Notes under the pieces: generated by a model
Told to the model about the DNA's origin: nothing
Database searches by the model: none
Seen by the model: only the letters and a program-made list of their open reading frames with translations
In this document: in pieces, positions 7,225 through 16,968 of the stretch
Layout: every line of letters starts with the position of its first letter
Position numbering within the stretch: the first letter of the stretch is position 1
Translations under genes and position numbers: made by a program
Origin: Fimbriimonadaceae bacterium
Lineage (GTDB): Bacteria; Armatimonadota; Fimbriimonadia; Fimbriimonadales; Fimbriimonadaceae
DNA length: 64,000 bases
NCBI GenBank assembly: GCA_019638795.1
Contig: JAHBTB010000005.1
Span: forward strand, 1 to 64,000
Direction of reading: 5' to 3'

Positions 7225-9666
7225 CTATTTGACCACAAACGTGCCCTTGAGGGGCGTGTCGACCGACGAGGGGCCGACGTAGACATGGAACTCGCCCGGC
7301 TCGACCGTCCACTTCATACGGCGGTCCAGGATCGCCAACTCGCGTCCAGGGATCGTGACGGTGACCTCCTTGGACTCGCCGGGACGCAGGTCGACCCGAG
7401 TGAATCCGCCTAGGCGGCGCACGTAGGTCGTGACGCTCGCGACCTCCTGGTGGAAGTAGACCTCGGCCACCTCGGTGCCCGCCACGTCACCCTTGTTCGA
7501 CACGGTGAACCTGACGGTCACGTCTTGGCCTGGCTTGATCGTCGGCGACGCAAGCTTCAGCCCGCTGTAGGCAAACTTGGTGTAGCTGAGCCCAAAGCCG
7601 AAGGGGTAGAGCGGCCCGGCCACCGCGGCGGGGTTCTTGATGCCTTCGTCGTTCGACGCCGGTTTGTAGGGGAAGTTCAGGGGGATCTGGCCGACCGACT
7701 TGGGGACGGTGACCGGCAGCTTGCCGCTCGGGTTGTTGTGGCCAAAGATGGTCTCCGCCACCGCTTGCCCCGCGTGGGAGCCTGGAGCGAACCCGTACAG
7801 CACGGCCTGGGCGTGGTCGTCAAGCCAGTTGATCGACAGGGCCCGACCCGCGACGACGACCGCGACGACCGGCTTTCCGGCAGCGGCCACGGCCTGGCAC
7901 AACAGGCCTTGCCGGCCCGGAAGGTCGATGCTGGACCGTGTGCGGCTTTCCCCGCTTGTGCGGTTGTCTTCGCCCAAGACAAGGACCACGACGTCGGCCT
8001 TGCGGGCGACCGCCACGGCCTCGTCGATGCCTTTTTGCTCGGCCTGGGTCAAGGCGTGGGGGTAGAGCTCGTCGTTGGGGAAGTCCTTGGTCGTGACCGA
8101 GCAGCCCTTGGCGTAGAGCACCTTGCCTTCCCCGGCGAGTTCTCGGATCTTGGCGAGTACCGTCGGCACCTCAACATGCATCGGGCCGTACGTCTTGTGT
8201 GCCCAATCCACGTTCTCGGCGTTCGGGCCGATCACCGCGATGGTCTTCTCACCTGCTTTCAGCGGCAGGATGCCCCCCTGGTTCTTGAGCAAGACCAGCG
8301 ACTCGCGCGACGCCCGGAGGGCGACTTCCTGGTGGGCGGGACTGGCGACCAGACGGTCGGCGGCCTTGAGGTCCGACCGGTACGGGCGGTCGAAGAGCCC
8401 CAACCAAAACTTCACGCGCAAGACGGAGCGCACCCTCTCGTCAAGGACATGGGTGGGCACCAGCCCTTTTCGCACGTTCTCCCGGGCCGGCAGGATGTAG
8501 TCCTGGGGAGGCGTGAAGGTGGTGCGGACGTCGAGCCCCGCGAGCATCACCTGGCGCACCGCGTCGGCATAGTCCTTCGCGACATGGTGCTTGCTGTGGA
8601 CGTATTCGACGGCGTCACTGTCGCTGACGACATACCCGCGGAACCCCCACTGGGTTCGGAGGCGGTCGGTCAGAAACTCTTTGCTCGCCGCGACGGGGAC
8701 CCCGTCGTAGTCGTTGTAGCTGGCCATGACCCCGAGAAGGTCGGCTTCTTCGACCACCTCTTTGAAGGGCTTGAGGGCGATCTCCTCCATCATGCGGGGC
8801 GCGACATGGGGGTCGGTGCGAGAGTAACCCTCGCGGGCACCCTTGTTGAAGCTGTAGACAGCAAAGTGCTTGGCCGTAGATGCCGAACCGTTCGCTTGGA
8901 TCCCCTTCGTCAAGGCGACGCCCATCCGGGCCACCATGAAGGGGCTCTCGCCAAACGACTCTTCGGACCGGCCCCAACGTTGGTCGCGCACGACGTCCAG
9001 GATCGGTGAATAGACGTTGGTGTGGCCGAGCAGGCGGTTCTCTAGTCCGGTGATCTCGCCGATCCGGTGGACAAGGTCGAGGTCCCACGTCGCGCCGATC
9101 CCCGTGGGCACGGGGAACAGAGTCCCCGCGTAGGACGACGCCCCCTGGATGCCTTCATTGGTGAAGTCGACGGGAATGCCGAGCCGGGTCTGTTCGACAA
9201 AGAACCGCTGGATCTCGTTCAGGGCGGCGGCGTGCATGCTCGGTGGCCAAAGGTAGGGCGCGCCGGTCCGATTGTCGAATTTGCTGTTCAACTGCTCGTC
9301 GATGTTGGCGATACCGTCCTTCCAGACCTCGGTCTTCCACGCCAAGGTCGGCAGGCGGTCTTTCAGCACGGCTCCGTGACCGTACAGGGTCGCCAGTTGG
9401 CATGTCTTCTCGTCCAGGGTCATCTGGCGGAGCAGGTCGTCGACCCGCTTGTCGACGGGGTTGGCCGGGTCTTCGTAGACGTCCTTCTTGCCGTTCTTGT
9501 TGAGGTCGATCCAGTCGCCGTGATAGATCGACGGCATCGGCGCGAACACGGAGGGCACGTCGCTGGCCGGTGGTGACACCGAAAGGGAGACCGTCGCCGG
9601 AACCTGCACAGGACCGGGACGTTGGGTCGCCACCACCCACACCATTCCAAAGAGCATGGGGCTCAC
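7225..9666 (-). CDS. bglX: Beta-glucosidase, glycoside hydrolase family 3 (BglX-like)
   Basis: An 813-residue GH3 enzyme. The N-terminal barrel carries NVYSPILDVVRDQRWGR, KHFAVYSFNKG and GFRGYVVSDSD, where Asp349 is the expected nucleophile. The second domain has IAVIGPNAENVDW and LGEDNRTSGESRTR, whose Glu is the likely acid/base. A fibronectin-like C-terminal domain ends with EVAEVYFHQEV and RPGESKEVTV. The N-terminus MLFGMVWVVATQRP suggests export to the periplasm. The start is GTG at 9666 or the ATG at 9657. An EF-hand-like DLNKNGKKDVYED loop near residue 55 is common in this subfamily. It likely releases terminal beta-linked glucose from oligosaccharides. Confidence 0.93.
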   Translation of the reverse strand: MSPMLFGMVWVVATQRPGPVQVPATVSLSVSPPASDVPSVFAPMPSIYHGDWIDLNKNGKKDVYEDPANPVDKRVDDLLRQMTLDEKTCQLATLYGHGAVLKDRLPTLAWKTEVWKDGIANIDEQLNSKFDNRTGAPYLWPPSMHAAALNEIQRFFVEQTRLGIPVDFTNEGIQGASSYAGTLFPVPTGIGATWDLDLVHRIGEITGLENRLLGHTNVYSPILDVVRDQRWGRSEESFGESPFMVARMGVALTKGIQANGSASTAKHFAVYSFNKGAREGYSRTDPHVAPRMMEEIALKPFKEVVEEADLLGVMASYNDYDGVPVAASKEFLTDRLRTQWGFRGYVVSDSDAVEYVHSKHHVAKDYADAVRQVMLAGLDVRTTFTPPQDYILPARENVRKGLVPTHVLDERVRSVLRVKFWLGLFDRPYRSDLKAADRLVASPAHQEVALRASRESLVLLKNQGGILPLKAGEKTIAVIGPNAENVDWAHKTYGPMHVEVPTVLAKIRELAGEGKVLYAKGCSVTTKDFPNDELYPHALTQAEQKGIDEAVAVARKADVVVLVLGEDNRTSGESRTRSSIDLPGRQGLLCQAVAAAGKPVVAVVVAGRALSINWLDDHAQAVLYGFAPGSHAGQAVAETIFGHNNPSGKLPVTVPKSVGQIPLNFPYKPASNDEGIKNPAAVAGPLYPFGFGLSYTKFAYSGLKLASPTIKPGQDVTVRFTVSNKGDVAGTEVAEVYFHQEVASVTTYVRRLGGFTRVDLRPGESKEVTVTIPGRELAILDRRMKWTVEPGEFHVYVGPSSVDTPLKGTFVVK

Positions 9667-9887
9667 GGTACCTCACCCTCACGGGCGGCATGTCCCTACT
9701 CGACCAGCCCCCCGGGCGCACGGGCGAGGTCGAGACTAGGCCCAGGTCGTCTTGTCGTGAATCTCTCGCATTTACACGAGACTGGACCCATCGCAGAGGA
9801 TATGGCCATGAAATTGACAGAGGCGGCGCGAGTCACGGGAGGATCCACCTCCCATGTGACTTACCCAATTGTCGGAGCACACAACAT
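9667..9887. promoter_or_regulatory. Divergent intergenic region between GH3 gene and first PEP-CTERM gene
   Basis: 221 bp shared by two divergent genes. It holds an inverted repeat GGGAGG-ATCCA-CCTCCC at 9837-9853 and a 29-codon ORF (9802-9891, start MAMKLTEAARV) whose TGA overlaps the ATG of the PEP-CTERM gene, so a coupled leader peptide is possible. It does not resemble the upstream regions of PEP-CTERM copies 2 and 3. No clear -35/-10 pair was found. Confidence 0.4.
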
Positions 9888-10430
9888 ATGAGAACCAAGT
9901 TCTTGGACCGCACCTCGTCTCTTGCACTCGCCTTGATGGCTGTCGCCGCCCCGTCTGTCGCCCACGCCGGGCTGATGGGCTCGACGATGGGCGACCAGTA
10001 CTACGCCTACGGAGGCGCGTATAACAGCCAGACCAACTTTGTCGTCGGCGCGGGTGCCGAAGACAGTTTTCTGGGCCACTACAACCTTGATGTCGACGAC
10101 AATTCGATCACATTCGACTACTTTTCTGCCGGGACATATTCGACCTCAGTCCTGTCTTTGGCTCCGACCATCCACAACGGGACGGCGGTGCGTATGGTCA
10201 GCGGGCCGTCGTTCACCAACGTGACCATCGACGGTTCGACCAACATGGCCGGCTTTGATGCCAGCCGCATGAGCTGGACCGGCAACGAGATCCAGATCGA
10301 CTGGGCCGGCCTGACCTACGACGAAAACACCGTGATCAAGCTCAACGTCGAGACAGTCCCCGAACCGGCGTCGATGTCGGTCCTCCTTGGTGGGGCGGTG
10401 CTCGCCCTGCGCCGCCGCTTCAAGAAGTAA
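9888..10430 (+). CDS. PEP-CTERM sorting-domain protein, tandem copy 1
   Basis: 180 residues. The signal peptide MRTKFLDRTSSLALALMAVA ends at AHA-G. A glycine/tyrosine-rich beta-type middle follows (TMGDQYYAYGGAYNSQTNF, VTIDGSTNMAGFDASRMSW). The C-terminus is the tripartite PEP-CTERM signal: VPEP, a hydrophobic helix SMSVLLGGAVLAL, and basic RRRFKK. In other bacteria this tail is cut by exosortase and the protein is sent to the surface; no exosortase gene lies in this window. Copies 2 and 3 follow and are near identical over the second half. The start at 9888 is chosen because the signal peptide begins there; longer in-frame starts run through non-coding sequence. The molecular role is unknown. 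Confidence 0.88.
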   Translation: MRTKFLDRTSSLALALMAVAAPSVAHAGLMGSTMGDQYYAYGGAYNSQTNFVVGAGAEDSFLGHYNLDVDDNSITFDYFSAGTYSTSVLSLAPTIHNGTAVRMVSGPSFTNVTIDGSTNMAGFDASRMSWTGNEIQIDWAGLTYDENTVIKLNVETVPEPASMSVLLGGAVLALRRRFKK

Positions 10431-10450
10431 GAGGCCTCAAAGGAACACAG

Positions 10451-10483
10451 GGGGCCAGGGCAAAATGCCCTGGCCCTCTTTAT
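10451..10483 (+). terminator. Rho-independent terminator after PEP-CTERM copy 1
   Basis: Stem GGGCCAGGGC / GCCCTGGCCC with an AAAAT-type loop, followed by TCTTTAT. The same hairpin follows copy 2, so it was duplicated with the gene. Confidence 0.85.
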
Positions 10484-10597
10484 GTTGCCAAGCTATGCAA
10501 AAGCACAAATACTAGGAATCACCTCGACATCAAGATTTGGTCAGATCTATGTTGTACATTCAACGCAATAATTTCGTGATTTGGAATCGCGAAATGC

Positions 10598-10611
10598 CTG
10601 CAATATTGCAG
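10598..10611. promoter_or_regulatory. 14-bp perfect palindrome before PEP-CTERM copy 2
   Basis: CTGCAATATTGCAG reads the same on both strands and ends 11 nt before the ATG. The identical palindrome at the same distance precedes copy 3 (11337-11350), but not copy 1. It could be an operator or a small hairpin in the mRNA leader near the ribosome binding site. Confidence 0.6.
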
Positions 10612-10622
10612 AGAGAAATCCA

Positions 10623-11165
10623 ATGCGATACAACCTCAGCTTCCGCACTTCTAGCCTCGTCAGTGCCATGATGGCCCTCGCCATCCCGTCCGTCGCCCAC
10701 GCCGGGATGATGGGCTCGACCATGGGCGACCAGTACTACGCCTACGGAGGCGCGTATAACAGCCAGACCAACTTTGTCGTCGGTGCTGGCGTCGAAGACA
10801 ACTTTGCCGGCTATTACGACCTCGACATTGACGACAATTCGATCACATTCGACTACCTGACCGCCAGCACCTGGTCGAGTTCGTCCCTGTCCCTTGCCCC
10901 GACGATCTACAACGGCACCGCAATCCGCATGGTCAGCGGGCCGTCGTTCACGAACGTGACGATCGACGGTGCGACCAACCTGGCCGGGTTTAACGCCAGC
11001 CGCATGAGCTGGACCGGTAACGAGATCCAGATCGACTGGGTCGACCTCACCTTTGACAAGAACACGATCGTCAAGCTCAACGTCGAGACGGTCCCCGAAC
11101 CGGCGTCGATGTCGGTCCTCCTCGGTGGGGCGGTGCTCGCCCTGCGCCGCCGCTTCAAGAAGTAA
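10623..11165 (+). CDS. PEP-CTERM sorting-domain protein, tandem copy 2
   Basis: 180 residues, a close paralogue of copies 1 and 3. Signal peptide MRYNLSFRTSSLVSAMMALA with cleavage expected after AHA, then GMMGSTMGDQYYAYGGAYNS, and the C-terminal VPEPASMSVLLGG plus basic RRRFKK as a PEP-CTERM sorting signal. The ATG at 10623 is chosen over the in-frame upstream codon because it gives the same signal-peptide start as copy 3 and follows a conserved leader with AGAGA. It has its own promoter-side region (10484-10622), shared in sequence with that of copy 3, and its own terminator, so it is a free-standing unit. Likely an exported surface or matrix protein; no enzymatic motif. Confidence 0.88.
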   Translation: MRYNLSFRTSSLVSAMMALAIPSVAHAGMMGSTMGDQYYAYGGAYNSQTNFVVGAGVEDNFAGYYDLDIDDNSITFDYLTASTWSSSSLSLAPTIYNGTAIRMVSGPSFTNVTIDGATNLAGFNASRMSWTGNEIQIDWVDLTFDKNTIVKLNVETVPEPASMSVLLGGAVLALRRRFKK

Positions 11166-11184
11166 ACGTCGTCGATAGGACACA

Positions 11185-11227
11185 AGAGGGCCAGGGCAAA
11201 ATGCCTTGGCCCTCTTCAGTTTTTTTC
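11185..11227 (+). terminator. Rho-independent terminator after PEP-CTERM copy 2
   Basis: Stem AGAGGGCCAGGGC / GCCTTGGCCCTCT around AAAAT, followed by TCAGTTTTTTT. It is nearly identical to the hairpin after copy 1. Confidence 0.9.
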
Positions 11228-11336
11228 CGAATTCATGCGAAGCACAATTGCTAGGAATCTCCGCAAGATCAAGAATTGTTTATTTATGTGTTGTACATTC
11301 ACTGCAACTCTTTTCGTGACATTGAATTGAGAACGA

Positions 11337-11350
11337 CTGCAATATTGCAG
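11337..11350. promoter_or_regulatory. 14-bp perfect palindrome before PEP-CTERM copy 3
   Basis: Second copy of CTGCAATATTGCAG, again 11 nt before the ATG, followed by GGAGG as ribosome binding site. The flanking sequence (TTGTACATTCA further upstream, TTTCGTGA) is also shared with copy 2. Confidence 0.6.
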
Positions 11351-11361
11351 GGAGGAATACA

Positions 11362-11916
11362 ATGCGTTACAACATCAGCTTCCGCGATTCTGGCCTCGTC
11401 TGTGCCATCATGGCCCTCGCCATCCCGTCCGTCGCCCATGCCGGGATGATGGGCTCGACCATGGGCGACCAGTACTACGCCTACGGAGGCGCGTATGACA
11501 GCCAGACCAACTTTGTCGTCGGCGCTGGCGTCGAAGACACCTTCGAGGCCCTCAGCATCCAGTATTACAACATCGACATTGACGATAATTCGATCACATT
11601 CGACTACTTGAGCGCCGGCACTTGGTCGAGTTCGTCCCTGTCCCTTGCCCCGACGATCTACAACGGCACTGCAATCCGCATGGTCAGCGGGCCGTCGTTC
11701 ACGAACGTGACGATCGACGGTGCGACCAACCTGGCCGGCTTTGACGCCAGCCGCATGAGCTGGACCGGTAACGAGATCCAGATCGACTGGGTCGACCTCA
11801 ACTACGATGAGAACACGATCGTCAAGCTCAACGTCGAGACGGTCCCCGAACCGGCGTCGATGTCGGTCCTCCTTGGTGGAGCGGTGCTTGCCCTGCGCCG
11901 CCGCTTCAAGAAGTAA
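11362..11916 (+). CDS. PEP-CTERM sorting-domain protein, tandem copy 3
   Basis: 184 residues, nearly the same as copy 2 but with a four-residue longer loop after VEDTF (EALSIQYYN in place of AGYYD). The signal peptide, the YYAYGGAY stretch and the C-terminal VPEP-hydrophobic-RRRFKK sorting signal are intact. A strong ribosome binding site GGAGG precedes the ATG. The length change in an otherwise conserved array points to divergence by small insertions after duplication. Probably exported and processed by an exosortase encoded elsewhere; role unknown. Confidence 0.88.
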   Translation: MRYNISFRDSGLVCAIMALAIPSVAHAGMMGSTMGDQYYAYGGAYDSQTNFVVGAGVEDTFEALSIQYYNIDIDDNSITFDYLSAGTWSSSSLSLAPTIYNGTAIRMVSGPSFTNVTIDGATNLAGFDASRMSWTGNEIQIDWVDLNYDENTIVKLNVETVPEPASMSVLLGGAVLALRRRFKK

Positions 11917-12012: not shown

Positions 12013-12762
12013 ATGGACCCGCGCCTCTCCTTTTGCATCCAAGCTGCCTTCGAGGCTGGACGAAGTACCCTGGCCCACTACCAGACTGGCGTCGCCGTCG
12101 ACGTCAAGGCCGACGCGTCCCCGGTCACCCAGGCCGACCGTGACGCCGAGGCCGTCGTCCGGCGGCTCGTCGCCCAGACTTGGCCGGGTGAACCTGTCTT
12201 GGGCGAAGAAGAAGGTGCCAGCGGAGCCGGGCTCGACCGTTGGGTCGTCGACCCGATCGACGGCACCAAATCCTTCATCGCCGGCGTGCCCCTTTTTGCG
12301 ACGCTCATCAGCTACGAACGGGACGGGGAGCCGGTGGCGGCCGCCGTCTACTTCCCAGCTCTCGACGACATGTACTACGCCAGCAAAGGCGGCGGTGCCT
12401 TCTGGAACGGTCGGCCAGTGCGCGTACGCCCGACGACCGATCTTGCCGAAGCGACCTTGCTCAACGGTAGTTTCAAGTCCCTCCGCGACCACGGGCGGCT
12501 CGACGGTTACCACCGATTGGCCGCGGAGGCGAAGGTCACAAGGGGGTGGTCTGACGCCTACGGACACGCTTTGGTCGCCAGCGGGCGCGCCGACATCATG
12601 TTGGACCCGGTCATCGCCCGGTGGGACATTAGCGCCCCGGCCCTCCTCGTCCGCGAAGCAGGCGGGGTGTTCATGGACTTCAATGGGGCCGACGTCCTTG
12701 GCGCCGACGCGGTCAGCTTGACGCCGGGCCTGAGGGAAACGGTGCTTGAGGCGTTCCGATGA
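12013..12762 (+). CDS. Inositol monophosphatase family protein (histidinol-phosphatase HisN-like)
   Basis: 249 residues with all IMPase metal-site motifs: GEEEG near 64-68, DPIDGTKSF from Asp80, WSDAYGH near 179 and WDISAP from Trp204. These Mg-dependent enzymes remove phosphate from small alcohol phosphates. The WSDAYG form is typical of the HisN subgroup, so histidinol-phosphate is the best guess, with inositol-1-phosphate as alternative. It is the first gene of an operon in which every junction overlaps (HisN-RuvX-MltG-YqeG/GtrA-AroE-Sua5); its stop shares 4 nt with the next start. Confidence 0.85.
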   Translation: MDPRLSFCIQAAFEAGRSTLAHYQTGVAVDVKADASPVTQADRDAEAVVRRLVAQTWPGEPVLGEEEGASGAGLDRWVVDPIDGTKSFIAGVPLFATLISYERDGEPVAAAVYFPALDDMYYASKGGGAFWNGRPVRVRPTTDLAEATLLNGSFKSLRDHGRLDGYHRLAAEAKVTRGWSDAYGHALVASGRADIMLDPVIARWDISAPALLVREAGGVFMDFNGADVLGADAVSLTPGLRETVLEAFR

Positions 12763-13175
12763 GGGTGATGGCGGTGGACTTCGGCGGTGCCAAGATCGGC
12801 CTTGCCGTCGGCGACACCGAGACACGGGTGGCCTCTCCGCGGCCCAACCTGTCGGCCAGCGGCACCCTTGCCACGGACGCCGCCGCCCTCGTCGCCCGGG
12901 CAAGGGCCGAAGAGGCTGAGGCCATGGTCGTCGGGATCCCCCTGGACGCCGGTGGCGAGACCAAGATGAGCCGCGTCTGCCGGCGACTGGGAGACCTGGT
13001 CGCGGCCCACGGTCTGCCCGTGGCCTTTGTAGACGAGAGCCTGACCAGCCACGCTGCCGAGACCGACATGCTCGCCGCCGGGCTCAAGGGGTCGCAACGG
13101 CGCAAGCTTGTCGACGGCGAGGCCGCCTGCCGCATCATGGAACGCTTCCTGGAGTCGCATGGCAGGACGCTCTAA
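12759..13175 (+). CDS. ruvX: Putative Holliday junction resolvase / pre-16S rRNA nuclease (RuvX/YqgF)
   Basis: 138 residues, the usual length for this RNase H-like family. Motifs: MAVDFGGAKIGLAVGD at the N-terminus with the first catalytic Asp, VVGIPLDAGGE in the middle, and FVDESLTSHAAE with a second acidic pair. The C-terminal VDGEAACRIMERFL carries a third acidic residue. YqgF proteins act in 16S rRNA 5' maturation in several bacteria. The ATG overlaps the previous stop (ATGA), and the coding region runs 17 nt into mltG. The order yqgF-mltG-aroE is common in bacteria and supports the call. Confidence 0.92.
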   Translation: MRVMAVDFGGAKIGLAVGDTETRVASPRPNLSASGTLATDAAALVARARAEEAEAMVVGIPLDAGGETKMSRVCRRLGDLVAAHGLPVAFVDESLTSHAAETDMLAAGLKGSQRRKLVDGEAACRIMERFLESHGRTL

Positions 13176-14190
13176 GCCGCGCCGCAGGCCAAGGGGGCGT
13201 CGGAGATGGGCTTTTCTGGCGACCTTGGTCGTCCTGGTCGGCGGCCCGCTGGCGTGGGGGATGTATCAACTGTCCCCGACCACGGCGGGTAAGCCCTTCT
13301 ATGTCCGCTACAACTCCGGCCTTTCGGCTGGCAAAGCCCTGGAAGACTTGCAGGCCAACGGTGTCGTCCGCAACAGCCAGTGCATGGCCTTGGTCGCCAA
13401 GGTGTACGACCTGCAGTCCGTCGACCCCGGTACTTACCGGTTTGCCCCCGGGATGTCGTGGCGCGAGGTCGTCCGGGCCCTGCGCAAGCCGATCCGACAA
13501 GACGTCGTCATCCCCCCCGGCTGGTGGATCGCGCGGGTCGGCAAGCGGTTGGAGGCCAAGGGCGTCTGTACGGCCAAGGAATACATCGACGCCGCCAACC
13601 ACCCGGAGCGGTTCCAAGGCGTCGTCGGCTTTCCGCTGCCCGAAAAGAGCTTGGAGGGCTACCTCTTTCCCGACACCTACGACCTACCCCCGTTGCTCGG
13701 TGCCGACGAGGTCGTCCGACGCCAGTTGCGGGCGTTCGACGAAAAGGTTGCGGCCCCTTTGGGGACGAACGGGCTCGCCCGCGCCCTCACCATCGCGTCT
13801 ATGGTGGAGCTCGAGGCGGCCAAAGACGAGGAACGCCCGGTCATCGCCGGGGTGATCGAAAACCGCCTGGCCAAGGGCCAAAGGCTGGAGATGGACGCCA
13901 CCGTCCTATACGCCCTTCAGGAGTGGAAGGTGCTCGGCCCCGGGGTGGTCCACACAGTCAAGTCTCCATACAACACCTACGAACACGCCGGTCTGCCCCC
14001 CGGACCGATCGGTTCGCCCGGGAAGGCCAGCATCGAGGCCGCGCTGCACCCAGCGCGGCACGGGTACTTTTTCTATGTGGCAAAGCCCGACCGGACCCAC
14101 ATCTTCTCGGCGACTTACGCGCAGCACCTTGCCGCGATCAAAGTCGCCCGCAAGGCCTGGGCTGACGCCAAGGCCAAGGCTAAGCCATGA
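13159..14190 (+). CDS. mltG: Endolytic murein transglycosylase MltG
   Basis: 343 residues with a basic N-terminus (MAGRSKPRRRPRGRRR), one membrane anchor (WAFLATLVVLVGGPLAWGMY), a LysM-like region and the YceG catalytic domain. The signature ASMVELEAAKDEERPVIAGV, with its catalytic Glu, is followed by IENRLAKGQRLEMDATV, YNTYEHAGLPPGPIGSPG and HPARHGYFFYV. The enzyme cuts nascent glycan strands in the periplasm and sets their length. An upstream start at 13108 would sit inside ruvX; 13159 puts the basic N-terminus right before the anchor. It overlaps ruvX by 17 nt and the next gene by 4 nt. Confidence 0.93.
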   Translation: MAGRSKPRRRPRGRRRWAFLATLVVLVGGPLAWGMYQLSPTTAGKPFYVRYNSGLSAGKALEDLQANGVVRNSQCMALVAKVYDLQSVDPGTYRFAPGMSWREVVRALRKPIRQDVVIPPGWWIARVGKRLEAKGVCTAKEYIDAANHPERFQGVVGFPLPEKSLEGYLFPDTYDLPPLLGADEVVRRQLRAFDEKVAAPLGTNGLARALTIASMVELEAAKDEERPVIAGVIENRLAKGQRLEMDATVLYALQEWKVLGPGVVHTVKSPYNTYEHAGLPPGPIGSPGKASIEAALHPARHGYFFYVAKPDRTHIFSATYAQHLAAIKVARKAWADAKAKAKP

Positions 14191-15266
14191 GGCACTTCCG
14201 TCCCGGAACCTTCTCAAGGGACGCGATGCCGCGTGTTCTCCGGCACTTTTCGCCGTCCGAGTCCCTCGACGGACTGGAGAAGGTCGACCTGGCCGCCCTC
14301 CATGCCGCCGGCAAGCGCCTGGTGCTCCTCGACGTCGACAACACCCTCCTTCCATGGAAAAGCGAAGACATCCCCGACGCGACCAAGCGATGGATCGAGG
14401 CGGGAAAGGCGCTCGGCCTCCGGTTCACCGTCCTCAGCAACACCCATAACCCGGCCCGGCTGGAGCGGCTTTGCCAGGCGGTCGGGGTCGGTTTCATCCG
14501 TGACCGGGCCAAACCCAGCCGACGCATGTTTCTGATGGCCGTCGACCAGGCGGGCGTGGCCAAAGACCAGGCCGTCATGGTCGGTGACCAGTTGCTCACG
14601 GACGTGTGGGGGGCCAACCGGAGCGGGATCGACGCCATTTGGGTCAAGCCGATCCATCATCGCGAGTTCATCGGCACGACGCTCGTCAGCCGACGGGTGG
14701 AGTGGCTGCTCGGTCATTTCCTCTACCGATACTTCCAGGGTGACGGGGCCGACGAGGAGCACCGCCCGGGTTTCTTCCGCCGCCAAGTCGTCCAGCAGTT
14801 CGTCAAGTTCTTTGTCGTCGGCGGGGTGGCCACGGTCGTCGACTTGGGTCTGCACTACTACCTGATGTTCGCCGCCCGAGCGGGCGACCAGAGCCTCATG
14901 GAGGTGGCGGGCCGTTGGGCCGTCGCCACCCTGCCTTGGGAAGCCCACGAGACAAACCTCAAGGACGCCGCCTATGCCCCCCTCAAGGTCGTGCCGGTCG
15001 TCCTCGCGATCATGGTTTCCTACCTCCTGAACCGCGCCTGGACGTTCCAGGCCACCCACCAGCGCGCCACGTTCGCCCAGGTCGCCAAGTTCTACGTCAT
15101 CGCCCTGGTCGGCATGCTCATCAGCGTCACGGTCGGCAGCGTCGTCCAGCGCGTCGTGCCTGCCGGTGACAAGGTCGCTTGGGCCGTCGCCGCCGCGGCG
15201 GGGACCGCGGCCGGTTTCCTGTGGAACTTCAACGGCCAACGCCTCTGGACGTTCAAACACAAATGA
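14187..15266 (+). CDS. Fusion of YqeG-family HAD phosphatase with a GtrA-like membrane domain
   Basis: 359 residues in two parts. Residues ~10-165 are a HAD-IIIA phosphatase of YqeG type: LLDVDNTLLPW (nucleophile Asp), FTVLSNTHNP, KPSRRMFLMA and MVGDQLLTDVWGANRSGI. YqeG relatives dephosphorylate phosphatidylglycerophosphate to phosphatidylglycerol. Residues ~205-359 hold four hydrophobic segments with the GtrA/DPMS-like pattern: KFFVVGGVATVVDLGLHYY, MVSYLLNRAWTF and a final WNFNGQRLWTFK. GtrA proteins are proposed to flip lipid-linked sugars. The frame is continuous through both parts, so this is not a sequencing join in any obvious way. The start overlaps the mltG stop and the stop overlaps the aroE start. 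Confidence 0.85.
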   Translation: MRHFRPGTFSRDAMPRVLRHFSPSESLDGLEKVDLAALHAAGKRLVLLDVDNTLLPWKSEDIPDATKRWIEAGKALGLRFTVLSNTHNPARLERLCQAVGVGFIRDRAKPSRRMFLMAVDQAGVAKDQAVMVGDQLLTDVWGANRSGIDAIWVKPIHHREFIGTTLVSRRVEWLLGHFLYRYFQGDGADEEHRPGFFRRQVVQQFVKFFVVGGVATVVDLGLHYYLMFAARAGDQSLMEVAGRWAVATLPWEAHETNLKDAAYAPLKVVPVVLAIMVSYLLNRAWTFQATHQRATFAQVAKFYVIALVGMLISVTVGSVVQRVVPAGDKVAWAVAAAAGTAAGFLWNFNGQRLWTFKHK

Positions 15267-16048
15267 GTTGGTCGGAATGGCGTGACGCCCCCCCGGGGGA
15301 CTTCGCCGTCCTCGGCGACCCGGTGAAGCACTCCCGCTCGCCGCGCATGCACACCGCCGCGTACAAAGCTCTGGGGCGGTCGTGGCGATACAACGCCGTC
15401 CGGGTCCCCCTGTCCGAGTTCGACGAGGCCGTCGTCCACCTGGCCCGGTTGGGTTACCGAGGCGTCAACTGCACGGTCCCCCTGAAGGAGGCGGCGTTCC
15501 GCTGGGCGGACGAAGTCGATGCGACGACACGCCGGATCGGGGCGGCGAACACCCTGAGGCTGGCTGACCGCCACGCCACCAACACCGACGCCCCTGCGTT
15601 CGTCAACACGTTCGCGGGCAAGGGGCCCGTCTTGGTGCTTGGTGCCGGCGGGACGGCCCGGGCCGTCCTCGTCGCCCTTGACGAGGCGGGCGTCCGAACC
15701 TTCCTTTGGAACCGCACGCGTGCAAAGGCGGAGGCCCTTGTCGAAAGCTTGCGCGTCGCGGCCGACGTCATTGAAGGACCGCATCTGGCCGGCATGCGGT
15801 CCGTCGTCAACACGACGTCCGCCTCGCTCCAGGGTGAGGCCCTCCCGATTGACTGGTCGATGGCAGGCGCAGGGACGTTGGTCTATGAGGCCGCCTACGG
15901 GCCTTCGCCGTTCCTCGACGCGGCACAGGCACATGGGTTGGAAGCGGTGGACGGCCTGCCCCTCCTCGTCGAGCAAGGCGCCCTGGCGATCACCTGGTGG
16001 ACAGGAGTAGAGCCGGACCGGTCTGTCATGATGGAGGCGGTGCGATGA
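15263..16048 (+). CDS. aroE: Shikimate dehydrogenase
   Basis: 261 residues, standard length. GDPVKHSRSPRMH at the N-terminus binds shikimate; the catalytic Lys75 lies in NCTVPLKEAAF and its partner Asp109 in ATNTDAPAF. The Rossmann part has VLGAGGTARAV, FLWNRTRAKAEAL and VVNTTSAS, and the C-terminus VDGLPLLVEQGALA is typical. It reduces 3-dehydroshikimate to shikimate with NADPH. ATG at 15263 overlaps the preceding TGA, which is why longer starts inside the fusion gene are rejected. aroB and aroK are in a separate operon at 57.6-59.2 kb. Confidence 0.94.
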   Translation: MSWSEWRDAPPGDFAVLGDPVKHSRSPRMHTAAYKALGRSWRYNAVRVPLSEFDEAVVHLARLGYRGVNCTVPLKEAAFRWADEVDATTRRIGAANTLRLADRHATNTDAPAFVNTFAGKGPVLVLGAGGTARAVLVALDEAGVRTFLWNRTRAKAEALVESLRVAADVIEGPHLAGMRSVVNTTSASLQGEALPIDWSMAGAGTLVYEAAYGPSPFLDAAQAHGLEAVDGLPLLVEQGALAITWWTGVEPDRSVMMEAVR

Positions 16049-16968
16049 GCGTGTTCCCGCCGACCCCCGCCAACATCGCCGCCGCCGCCCGGGTGATCCA
16101 GGACGGTGGTGCCGTGGTCATGCCCACCGAAACCGTCTACGGCCTGGCCTGTGACGCCCTCGACGAGGCCGCCGTCGCCCGGGTGTACGAGATCAAGGGC
16201 CGGCCCGCCGAGAACCCGCTCATCGTCCACCTCGCCTCACATGACGATCTCGAAAGGGTCGCTGTCGTGGACAATCCTCTTGTCAAACGCCTCGCCGACG
16301 CCTATTGGCCGGGCCCTCTGACGATGGTGCTCAAGAAATCTCCACGAGTCCCCCGGATCACCACTGCTGGGCTCGACACGGTCGCTGTCCGTGTCCCCAG
16401 CCACCCAGTGGCCCGAGAGCTCATCCGCGCGGCGAAACGCCCGCTTGCCGCTCCCAGCGCGAACGTCTTCATGGGCCTGTCGCCGACCCGTGTCGAAGAC
16501 CTTGACCCAGAAATCCGGGTGGAGGTCGAGATCATTCTCGACGGAGGCCCGTGTGAATACGGATTGGAGAGCACGGTGGTCGATGTCACGGGGCCGAACC
16601 CGGTCATCTTGCGCCCCGGAGCGGTCACACGAGGGAATATTCAAGCCCTTCTCGGACGACCATTGGGCGAGATTCCACCCGCGGGCCCCCGACGTTCTCC
16701 CGGGCTCTACCCCCGACACTACGCCCCCCGTGCCCTGTTGAAGCTGGTTGACGCCCTCGGCGAAGAAGACTCCGGCTTGACCTTCGGCGAGTCGCGTCAC
16801 GTCCATCAAGTCAAGATGCCGCGAGACGCCCAAGCCTATGCGGCGAACATGTACTCGGCCCTCAAAAAGCTTGATACCGAGGGCGTCGAAGTGATCCTGG
16901 TGGAACGACCACCCGCCGACGCGGACTGGGAGGCCGTCAACGACCGCCTCAAACGCGCATGCGATTGA
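16045..16968 (+). CDS. sua5: L-threonylcarbamoyladenylate synthase (Sua5/TsaC family)
   Basis: 307 residues: an N-terminal YrdC domain with MPTETVYGLACDA, VYEIKGRPAENPLIVHL, YWPGPLTMVL and PSANVFMGLSPT, and a C-terminal Sua5 domain after SPGLYPRHYAPRALL. The enzyme makes threonylcarbamoyl-AMP from threonine, bicarbonate and ATP, the first step of t6A37 tRNA modification. The two-domain length marks the Sua5 type rather than the short TsaC. ATG overlaps the aroE stop (ATGA). It is the last gene of the hisN-like to sua5 operon; no strong terminator follows before the AT-richer block. Confidence 0.94.
   Translation: MSVFPPTPANIAAAARVIQDGGAVVMPTETVYGLACDALDEAAVARVYEIKGRPAENPLIVHLASHDDLERVAVVDNPLVKRLADAYWPGPLTMVLKKSPRVPRITTAGLDTVAVRVPSHPVARELIRAAKRPLAAPSANVFMGLSPTRVEDLDPEIRVEVEIILDGGPCEYGLESTVVDVTGPNPVILRPGAVTRGNIQALLGRPLGEIPPAGPRRSPGLYPRHYAPRALLKLVDALGEEDSGLTFGESRHVHQVKMPRDAQAYAANMYSALKKLDTEGVEVILVERPPADADWEAVNDRLKRACD

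Follow-up and report, generated by a model that had tools for sequence, protein, structure and literature searches.

In the 64,000-nucleotide stretch of DNA analysed here (the window), a YqeG-type phosphatase and a GtrA-like membrane domain are coded as one protein. This fusion is genuine, conserved and family-wide. Across the order Fimbriimonadales, GtrA is the genomic partner of UbiA, a polyprenyl-phosphate phosphoribosyltransferase. We propose, tentatively and with slightly more doubt than confidence, that the fusion joins the housekeeping phosphatase YqeG to a GtrA serving a polyprenyl-phosphate-pentofuranose pathway, in which the YqeG domain would remove a 5-phosphate. The best-supported part of this proposal is that the GtrA half serves a UbiA-derived polyprenyl-phosphate pentofuranose; a 5-phosphatase role of YqeG on the UbiA product is the weaker inference. 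The gene and its parts are:

14187 to 15266, forward strand: yqeG-gtrA fusion gene, 359 amino acids plus stop, ATG start, a single open frame
14247 to 14726, forward strand: YqeG-type HAD-IIIA phosphatase domain, residues 21-180 (TIGR01668, 116.5 bits; HAD fold in the structure model)
14331 to 14345, forward strand: HAD motif I, D49-V-D51-N-T53 (D49, D51 and T53 invariant in 24 of 24)
14511 to 14513, forward strand: HAD motif III lysine, K109 (invariant in 24 of 24)
14583 to 14603, forward strand: HAD motif IV, G133-D134-Q135-L-L-T138-D139 (G133, D134, Q135, T138 and D139 invariant in 24 of 24)
14742 to 14780, forward strand: interdomain linker, about residues 186-198 (pLDDT below 50 at 187-192)
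14805 to 15254, forward strand: GtrA/DPMS four-helix membrane domain, residues 207-356 (PF04138, 52.6 bits; model helices; hydropathy)

Profile searches recognise both halves above their cut-offs, and the reading of this frame as a phosphatase plus a GtrA-like domain, made in a preliminary description of the window, is confirmed. The YqeG model TIGR01668 has a cut-off of 89.1 bits and the GtrA model PF04138 one of 26.1 bits. The PGP_phosphatase model PF09419 also matches (24.7 bits against a cut-off of 20.4), more weakly than the YqeG model. In an alignment of 24 of the 31 fused open reading frames that were read, the HAD catalytic residues D49, D51, T53, S84, K109, G133, D134 and D139 are invariant. 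We take these residues to be HAD motifs I, III and IV with the catalytic pattern DxDxT, S/T, K and GDxxxTD. In the GtrA half, D219, N282, T286, F287, N347, F348, Q351 and F356 are likewise invariant in all 24 proteins.

The AlphaFold model, made with the 24 aligned fused proteins, has a mean pLDDT of 85 and a pTM of 0.57. In it, a low-confidence linker (residues 187-192) separates a HAD core from four long helices (200-229, 258-287, 296-323 and 328-355). Structure searches of the model against the PDB return mostly HAD hydrolases, which share the common HAD fold. Dolichyl phosphate mannose synthase (5mlz), which carries a GtrA-type domain, is among the Foldseek matches with an E value of 5e-4 but a TM-score of 0.27. 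The phmmer match to the DPMS/GtrA structure covers residues 267-316 (E 0.028), and the VIA-align structure list gives little information on the GtrA half.

The comparison set consists of 61 genomes of the order Fimbriimonadales, 37 from the same family (f1) and 24 from other families (f2-f5; eight genomes in f5 and 16 in f2-f4). The fusion is one frame in 34 of the 37 f1 genomes: 31 were read as open reading frames and three (G014, G019 and G036) are counted because one open frame gives a single match of nearly full length. The two halves are thus not separate in all relatives, and the fusion is no artefact, an assembly or annotation error being ruled out by its presence in one piece in these genomes. 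In G009 and G027 (loci L038 and L039), yqeG and gtrA are adjoining, separate genes in different frames. G029 (locus L041; 1.5 Mb, 97% complete) keeps YqeG and has no GtrA, UbiA or DprE1 match. Among the 24 genomes of other families no fusion was found; one of these, G054 (73% complete), is without any match. A plasmid search gave 10 records with partial matches, none spanning 80% of the fusion. No account of a YqeG-GtrA fusion was met in the literature, in searches that did not name that pair.

The fusion lies within a run of genes on the same strand and overlaps its neighbours on both sides:

12759 to 13175, forward strand: ruvX/yqgF (PF03652, 100.7 bits)
13108 to 14190, forward strand: mltG (YceG), upstream, ATGA overlap with the fusion, start position tentative (TIGR00247, 146.1 bits)
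15263 to 16048, forward strand: aroE (shikimate dehydrogenase), downstream, ATGA overlap with the fusion (TIGR00507, 184.7 bits)
16045 to 16968, forward strand: tsaC/Sua5-type gene (TIGR00057, 202 bits)

TIGR00507 is the best NCBIfam model for aroE and scores slightly below its cut-off of 200.2 bits, and PF08501 and PF18317 match above theirs. Elsewhere in the window, positions 9570-11916 code for three similar small proteins in tandem with a common PEP-CTERM-like tail (VPEPASMSVLLGGAVLALRRRFKK).

In the tree of MltG, YqeG and AroE, f1 and f5 group together (support 100). Within this group, the support for an f1 clade from which G029 branches first is 18, and G029 is on a very long branch. The GtrA half may have been lost from G029 or may never have been there. 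In the same tree, G009 and G027 form one clade (92) that falls inside the fused genomes with a support of about 80. Because of this position, fission is a likelier origin of their split genes than a relic of an unfused state. In the GtrA and YqeG trees, G009 and G027 do not form a clade. The fused GtrA domains group together (f1, 0.87) and with the ubiA-linked GtrAs of f5 (f1 and f5, 0.93) in the FastTree phylogeny. In the YqeG tree, f1 without G029 has a support of 0.11, and f1 and f5 are not a group.

GtrA is found above cut-off in 58 of the 61 genomes, as a single gene in all except G048, which has two. The second GtrA match of G048 (G048:C68:3590-3940), beside the ubiA-linked one, is also above cut-off and lies in a 384-residue open frame. 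UbiA matches are present in 58 genomes as well. These are the identical 58, and both genes are absent from the identical three, G029, G053 and G054. G053 and G054 are less complete (91% and 73%), and one missing contig each may account for their absences. Since ubiA and gtrA are neighbours in the families of these two genomes, only G029 is an independent co-loss.

Outside f1, gtrA lies no more than about 200 bases from ubiA in 21 of 24 genomes, as measured from match coordinates. The three exceptions are G053 and G054, without both genes, and G050, which has them on different contigs. In f2, f3 and f4, gtrA adjoins the gene for the UbiA-type polyprenyl-phosphate phosphoribosyltransferase and yqeG is elsewhere. 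The gene order in f5 is mltG-yqeG-ubiA-gtrA-aroE (six genomes read); yqeG is directly upstream of ubiA in seven of the eight f5 genomes, and at locus L034 the genes overlap. When wider genome contigs are scanned for UbiA, gtrA adjoins ubiA at seven of the best 80 loci (L108-L114). Six of these are titled Fimbriimonadales or Fimbriimonadia and one uncultured Armatimonadetes.

Genes resembling those of the mycobacterial arabinose-lipid pathway accompany ubiA. The genome that carries the window has three overlapping genes at G000:C1:656268-659292 (L086), for UbiA, an SDR protein and a DprE1-like oxidase. This UbiA passes NF008977, the decaprenyl-phosphate phosphoribosyltransferase model (238.9 bits, cut-off 234). 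The best model for the oxidase is DprE1, at 259.4 bits and below the cut-off of 500, and its match to DprE1 in the PDB has an E value of 3e-48. The SDR protein scores 103.6 bits with the DprE2 model, which is below the cut-off of 250 and is not its top model. UbiA and a DprE1 match are less than 3 kb apart in 24 of the 37 f1 genomes. A strong DprE1 match (E below 1e-60) is present in 26 of 37 f1 genomes, seven of eight f5 genomes and none of the 16 f2-f4 genomes; nine more f1 genomes, with E values from 4.6e-40 to 1.0e-57, are not included in this count, G034 has a weak match only and G029 has none. In G046, of f5, the DprE1-like gene comes after one for an SDR protein, at a place apart from ubiA (L216). 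DprE1/E2 homologues accompany Araf, as stated in the available part of PMC11127046; by this rule, many members probably make arabinose, whereas others may use ribose.

The reactions proposed for UbiA, DprE1 and DprE2 are taken from the families of these proteins. The product of UbiA would be polyprenyl-P-ribose-5-P. The YqeG domain would be kept on the cytoplasmic side of the membrane and remove the 5-phosphate from this product, and where DprE1 and DprE2 are present the ribose would be epimerised to arabinose. The GtrA domain, a predicted flippase by its family, would then bring the pentofuranose lipid across the membrane, to a transferase in the periplasm. Points in favour of YqeG as the 5-phosphatase are its fusion to GtrA, the f5 operon with UbiA, and a scan of 10 ubiA/dprE neighbours in four genomes, in which no HAD or PAP2 family member was matched. 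In G024, a DHH/DHHA1 phosphoesterase gene stands beside the DprE1-like gene; by eye, it is probably the one that usually adjoins truB. A further point in favour is a published parallel, a HAD-UbiA protein with the same reaction (excerpts of PMC11127046).

A further step is to see the single chain as a phosphatase-flippase that strips polyprenyl-P-ribose-5-P of its 5-phosphate and, coupled to this, exports the pentofuranose lipid, in an order without a recognisable CDP-alcohol phosphatidyltransferase and perhaps without phosphatidylglycerol. This coupling is unlikely on present evidence. If it is true, prenyl-linked or other ribose 5-phosphates, not phosphatidylglycerophosphate (PGP), would be natural substrates of YqeG, and the DPPR phosphatase, an unsettled enzyme, would gain a candidate type in the fusion.

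Several observations count against the 5-phosphatase proposal. YqeG is not dedicated to the pentofuranose pathway, because it is kept in G029 without UbiA, GtrA or DprE1 and is apart from ubiA-gtrA in f2-f4. It must also have a role that does not depend on UbiA, since it remains where UbiA and GtrA are absent. All 61 genomes have PAP2 proteins, which remain candidate lipid phosphatases; we take Rv3807c, the proposed mycobacterial 5-phosphatase, to be a PAP2-type protein. The DprE1-like and DprE2-like scores below the curated cut-offs count in the same direction. The flippase role of the mycobacterial GtrA protein Rv3789 is itself disputed, an anchor for AftA being the other role named in the accessible sections of PMC5964476.

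The fusion may also be an accident of position. In this alternative, GtrA exports polyprenyl-P-pentofuranose and YqeG is an unrelated housekeeping enzyme; the two were joined only because ubiA-gtrA had entered as a cassette between yqeG and aroE and ubiA had then moved elsewhere. Such a history is a substantial possibility, though we judge it more probably wrong than right. It is consistent with the adjoining yqeG and aroE genes of three f2 genomes (L042, L045 and L047), with the ubiA-gtrA cassette between these same genes in f5, with the two unfused genes of G009 and G027 and with the lone YqeG of G029. At the other 73 of the best 80 UbiA loci, which belong almost entirely to other phyla or classes and in many cases have flanks shorter than 10 kb, no YqeG or GtrA match is found in the flanks, which also favours an unrelated YqeG. 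A motif scan of the 80 loci for HAD and PAP2 proteins gave zero matches of either, and nothing is drawn from it. Against a mere by-product stand the retention of the fusion in 34 of the 36 GtrA-bearing members of the family and the pathway genes' lack of a neighbouring HAD or PAP2 gene in the four genomes scanned.

The preliminary description had suggested linked dephosphorylation and transport of phosphatidylglycerol or a lipid-linked sugar, with the gene perhaps replacing pgpA. The idea of linked action on a lipid-linked substrate stands, and the sugar is favoured over phosphatidylglycerol, as no PGP synthase is found and GtrA tracks UbiA. In the phosphatidylglycerol reading, YqeG is a PGP phosphatase and GtrA moves phosphatidylglycerol or helps. 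It gains from the above-cut-off match to PF09419, the model of the mitochondrial PGP phosphatase, and from a Chlamydomonas homologue of yeast Gep4p that complements a yeast PGP phosphatase mutant (PMC5897459, in the portion available). It is unlikely, and very much so, because no PGP synthase was detected: profile searches find PF01066 (CDP-alcohol phosphatidyltransferase) in none of the 61 genomes and in all 14 control genomes. PgpA is above cut-off in none of the 61 either, with one weak match below cut-off in G002. Therefore the fusion is not simply a replacement of pgpA in phosphatidylglycerol synthesis, and this was rejected as the main reading.

A scan for the catalytic motif with one mismatch allowed gives 12 hits in 10 of the 61 genomes, none of them in the genome of the window, and zero with the reversed pattern. 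As a control, the pattern matches E. coli pgsA exactly. When translated and judged by eye, none of the 12 hits resembles a membrane enzyme: surrounding hydrophobic helices are missing, two hits are broken by stops, and all 12 are taken as chance. The sole PLD-like gene of the genome of the window is a polyphosphate kinase. A CdsA-family match, which speaks for the phosphatidylglycerol reading, is present in 57 of the 61 genomes; either a head-group enzyme is too divergent to be detected or CDP-diacylglycerol is put to some other use. By profile and motif, the genome of the window and its 60 relatives either lack a route from CDP-diacylglycerol to phospholipids or have one that goes unrecognised. 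Literature searches gave no paper tying YqeG to phosphatidylglycerophosphate and none on the polar lipids of Fimbriimonas. Nothing pertinent was among the matches listed for Armatimonad- with phospholipid, and Armatimonad- with phosphatidylglycerophosphate gave one unrelated paper.

Least probable, with only a slight chance, is that the cargo of the GtrA domain is a hexose on undecaprenyl phosphate, in the classical GtrA/GtrB manner, and that YqeG is a membrane-recruited sugar-phosphate phosphatase: members of the GtrA family act with GtrB-type synthases (PMC7389260, in part) and YqeG weakly hydrolyses glucose-6-phosphate (PMC5080769, in part), but the linked synthase in these genomes is of the UbiA type.

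Among known systems, ORF15 of Citrobacter youngae combines a phosphoribose phosphatase domain of the HAD type with a UbiA polyprenyl phosphoribose synthase and, like the fusion, joins a HAD phosphatase to a membrane component of a polyprenyl-phosphate-ribose pathway. The phosphatase of ORF15 is paired with the synthase, and a MATE protein is predicted to be the flippase (available text of PMC11127046), whereas the fusion pairs a YqeG-type phosphatase with GtrA and UbiA is separate. The mycobacterial DPA pathway (Rv3806c, Rv3807c, DprE1/DprE2 and Rv3789) is similar in that the genome of the window, too, has a UbiA, a GtrA and proteins resembling DprE1 and DprE2. It differs in its proposed 5-phosphatase, Rv3807c, which is described in the same partial source as unrelated to HAD phosphatases, and in that Rv3789 has no phosphatase fused to it. 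The 5-phosphatase is an uncertain step in mycobacteria too, and Rv3807c is the sole step not found essential among dprE1, dprE2, ubiA, prsA and Rv3807c (both from extracts of PMC5964476).

Stand-alone YqeG proteins of B. subtilis and others belong to the same HAD-IIIA family but have no membrane domain. Stand-alone GtrA/GtcA flippase candidates share the Pfam domain but have no phosphatase fused, and those described work with GtrB-type synthases (PMC7389260, as far as available). The GEP4/PGPP1 PGP phosphatases are alike in their PF09419 match and unlike in that no PGP synthase is found in the 61 Fimbriimonadales genomes. The fusion argues against a homology-based "PGP phosphatase" name where PGP synthesis is not found.

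YqeG is widely conserved but poorly characterised, and its physiological substrate is unsettled. In the sections of PMC5080769 available, B. subtilis YqeG has weak phosphatase activity on GMP and glucose-6-phosphate, at 10 mM only; attempts at in-frame deletion of yqeG failed, and a depletion strain still grew in liquid. In Streptococcus sanguinis, YqeG is listed as essential and its deletion leads to severe growth defects (PMC12691585, in excerpt). A natural YqeG-GtrA fusion ties YqeG to the GtrA partner of the pentofuranose pathway and so gives a concrete, testable substrate.

In several f2 loci, gtrA precedes exosortase genes. Exosortase/EpsI-type genes are next to ubiA or close to it (with gtrA in f2) at L043, L046, L048, L088, L090, L091 and L095, as identified by profile scan at L048 and by eye at the other loci. 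This suggests that the pentofuranose lipid serves an exosortase-linked surface system.
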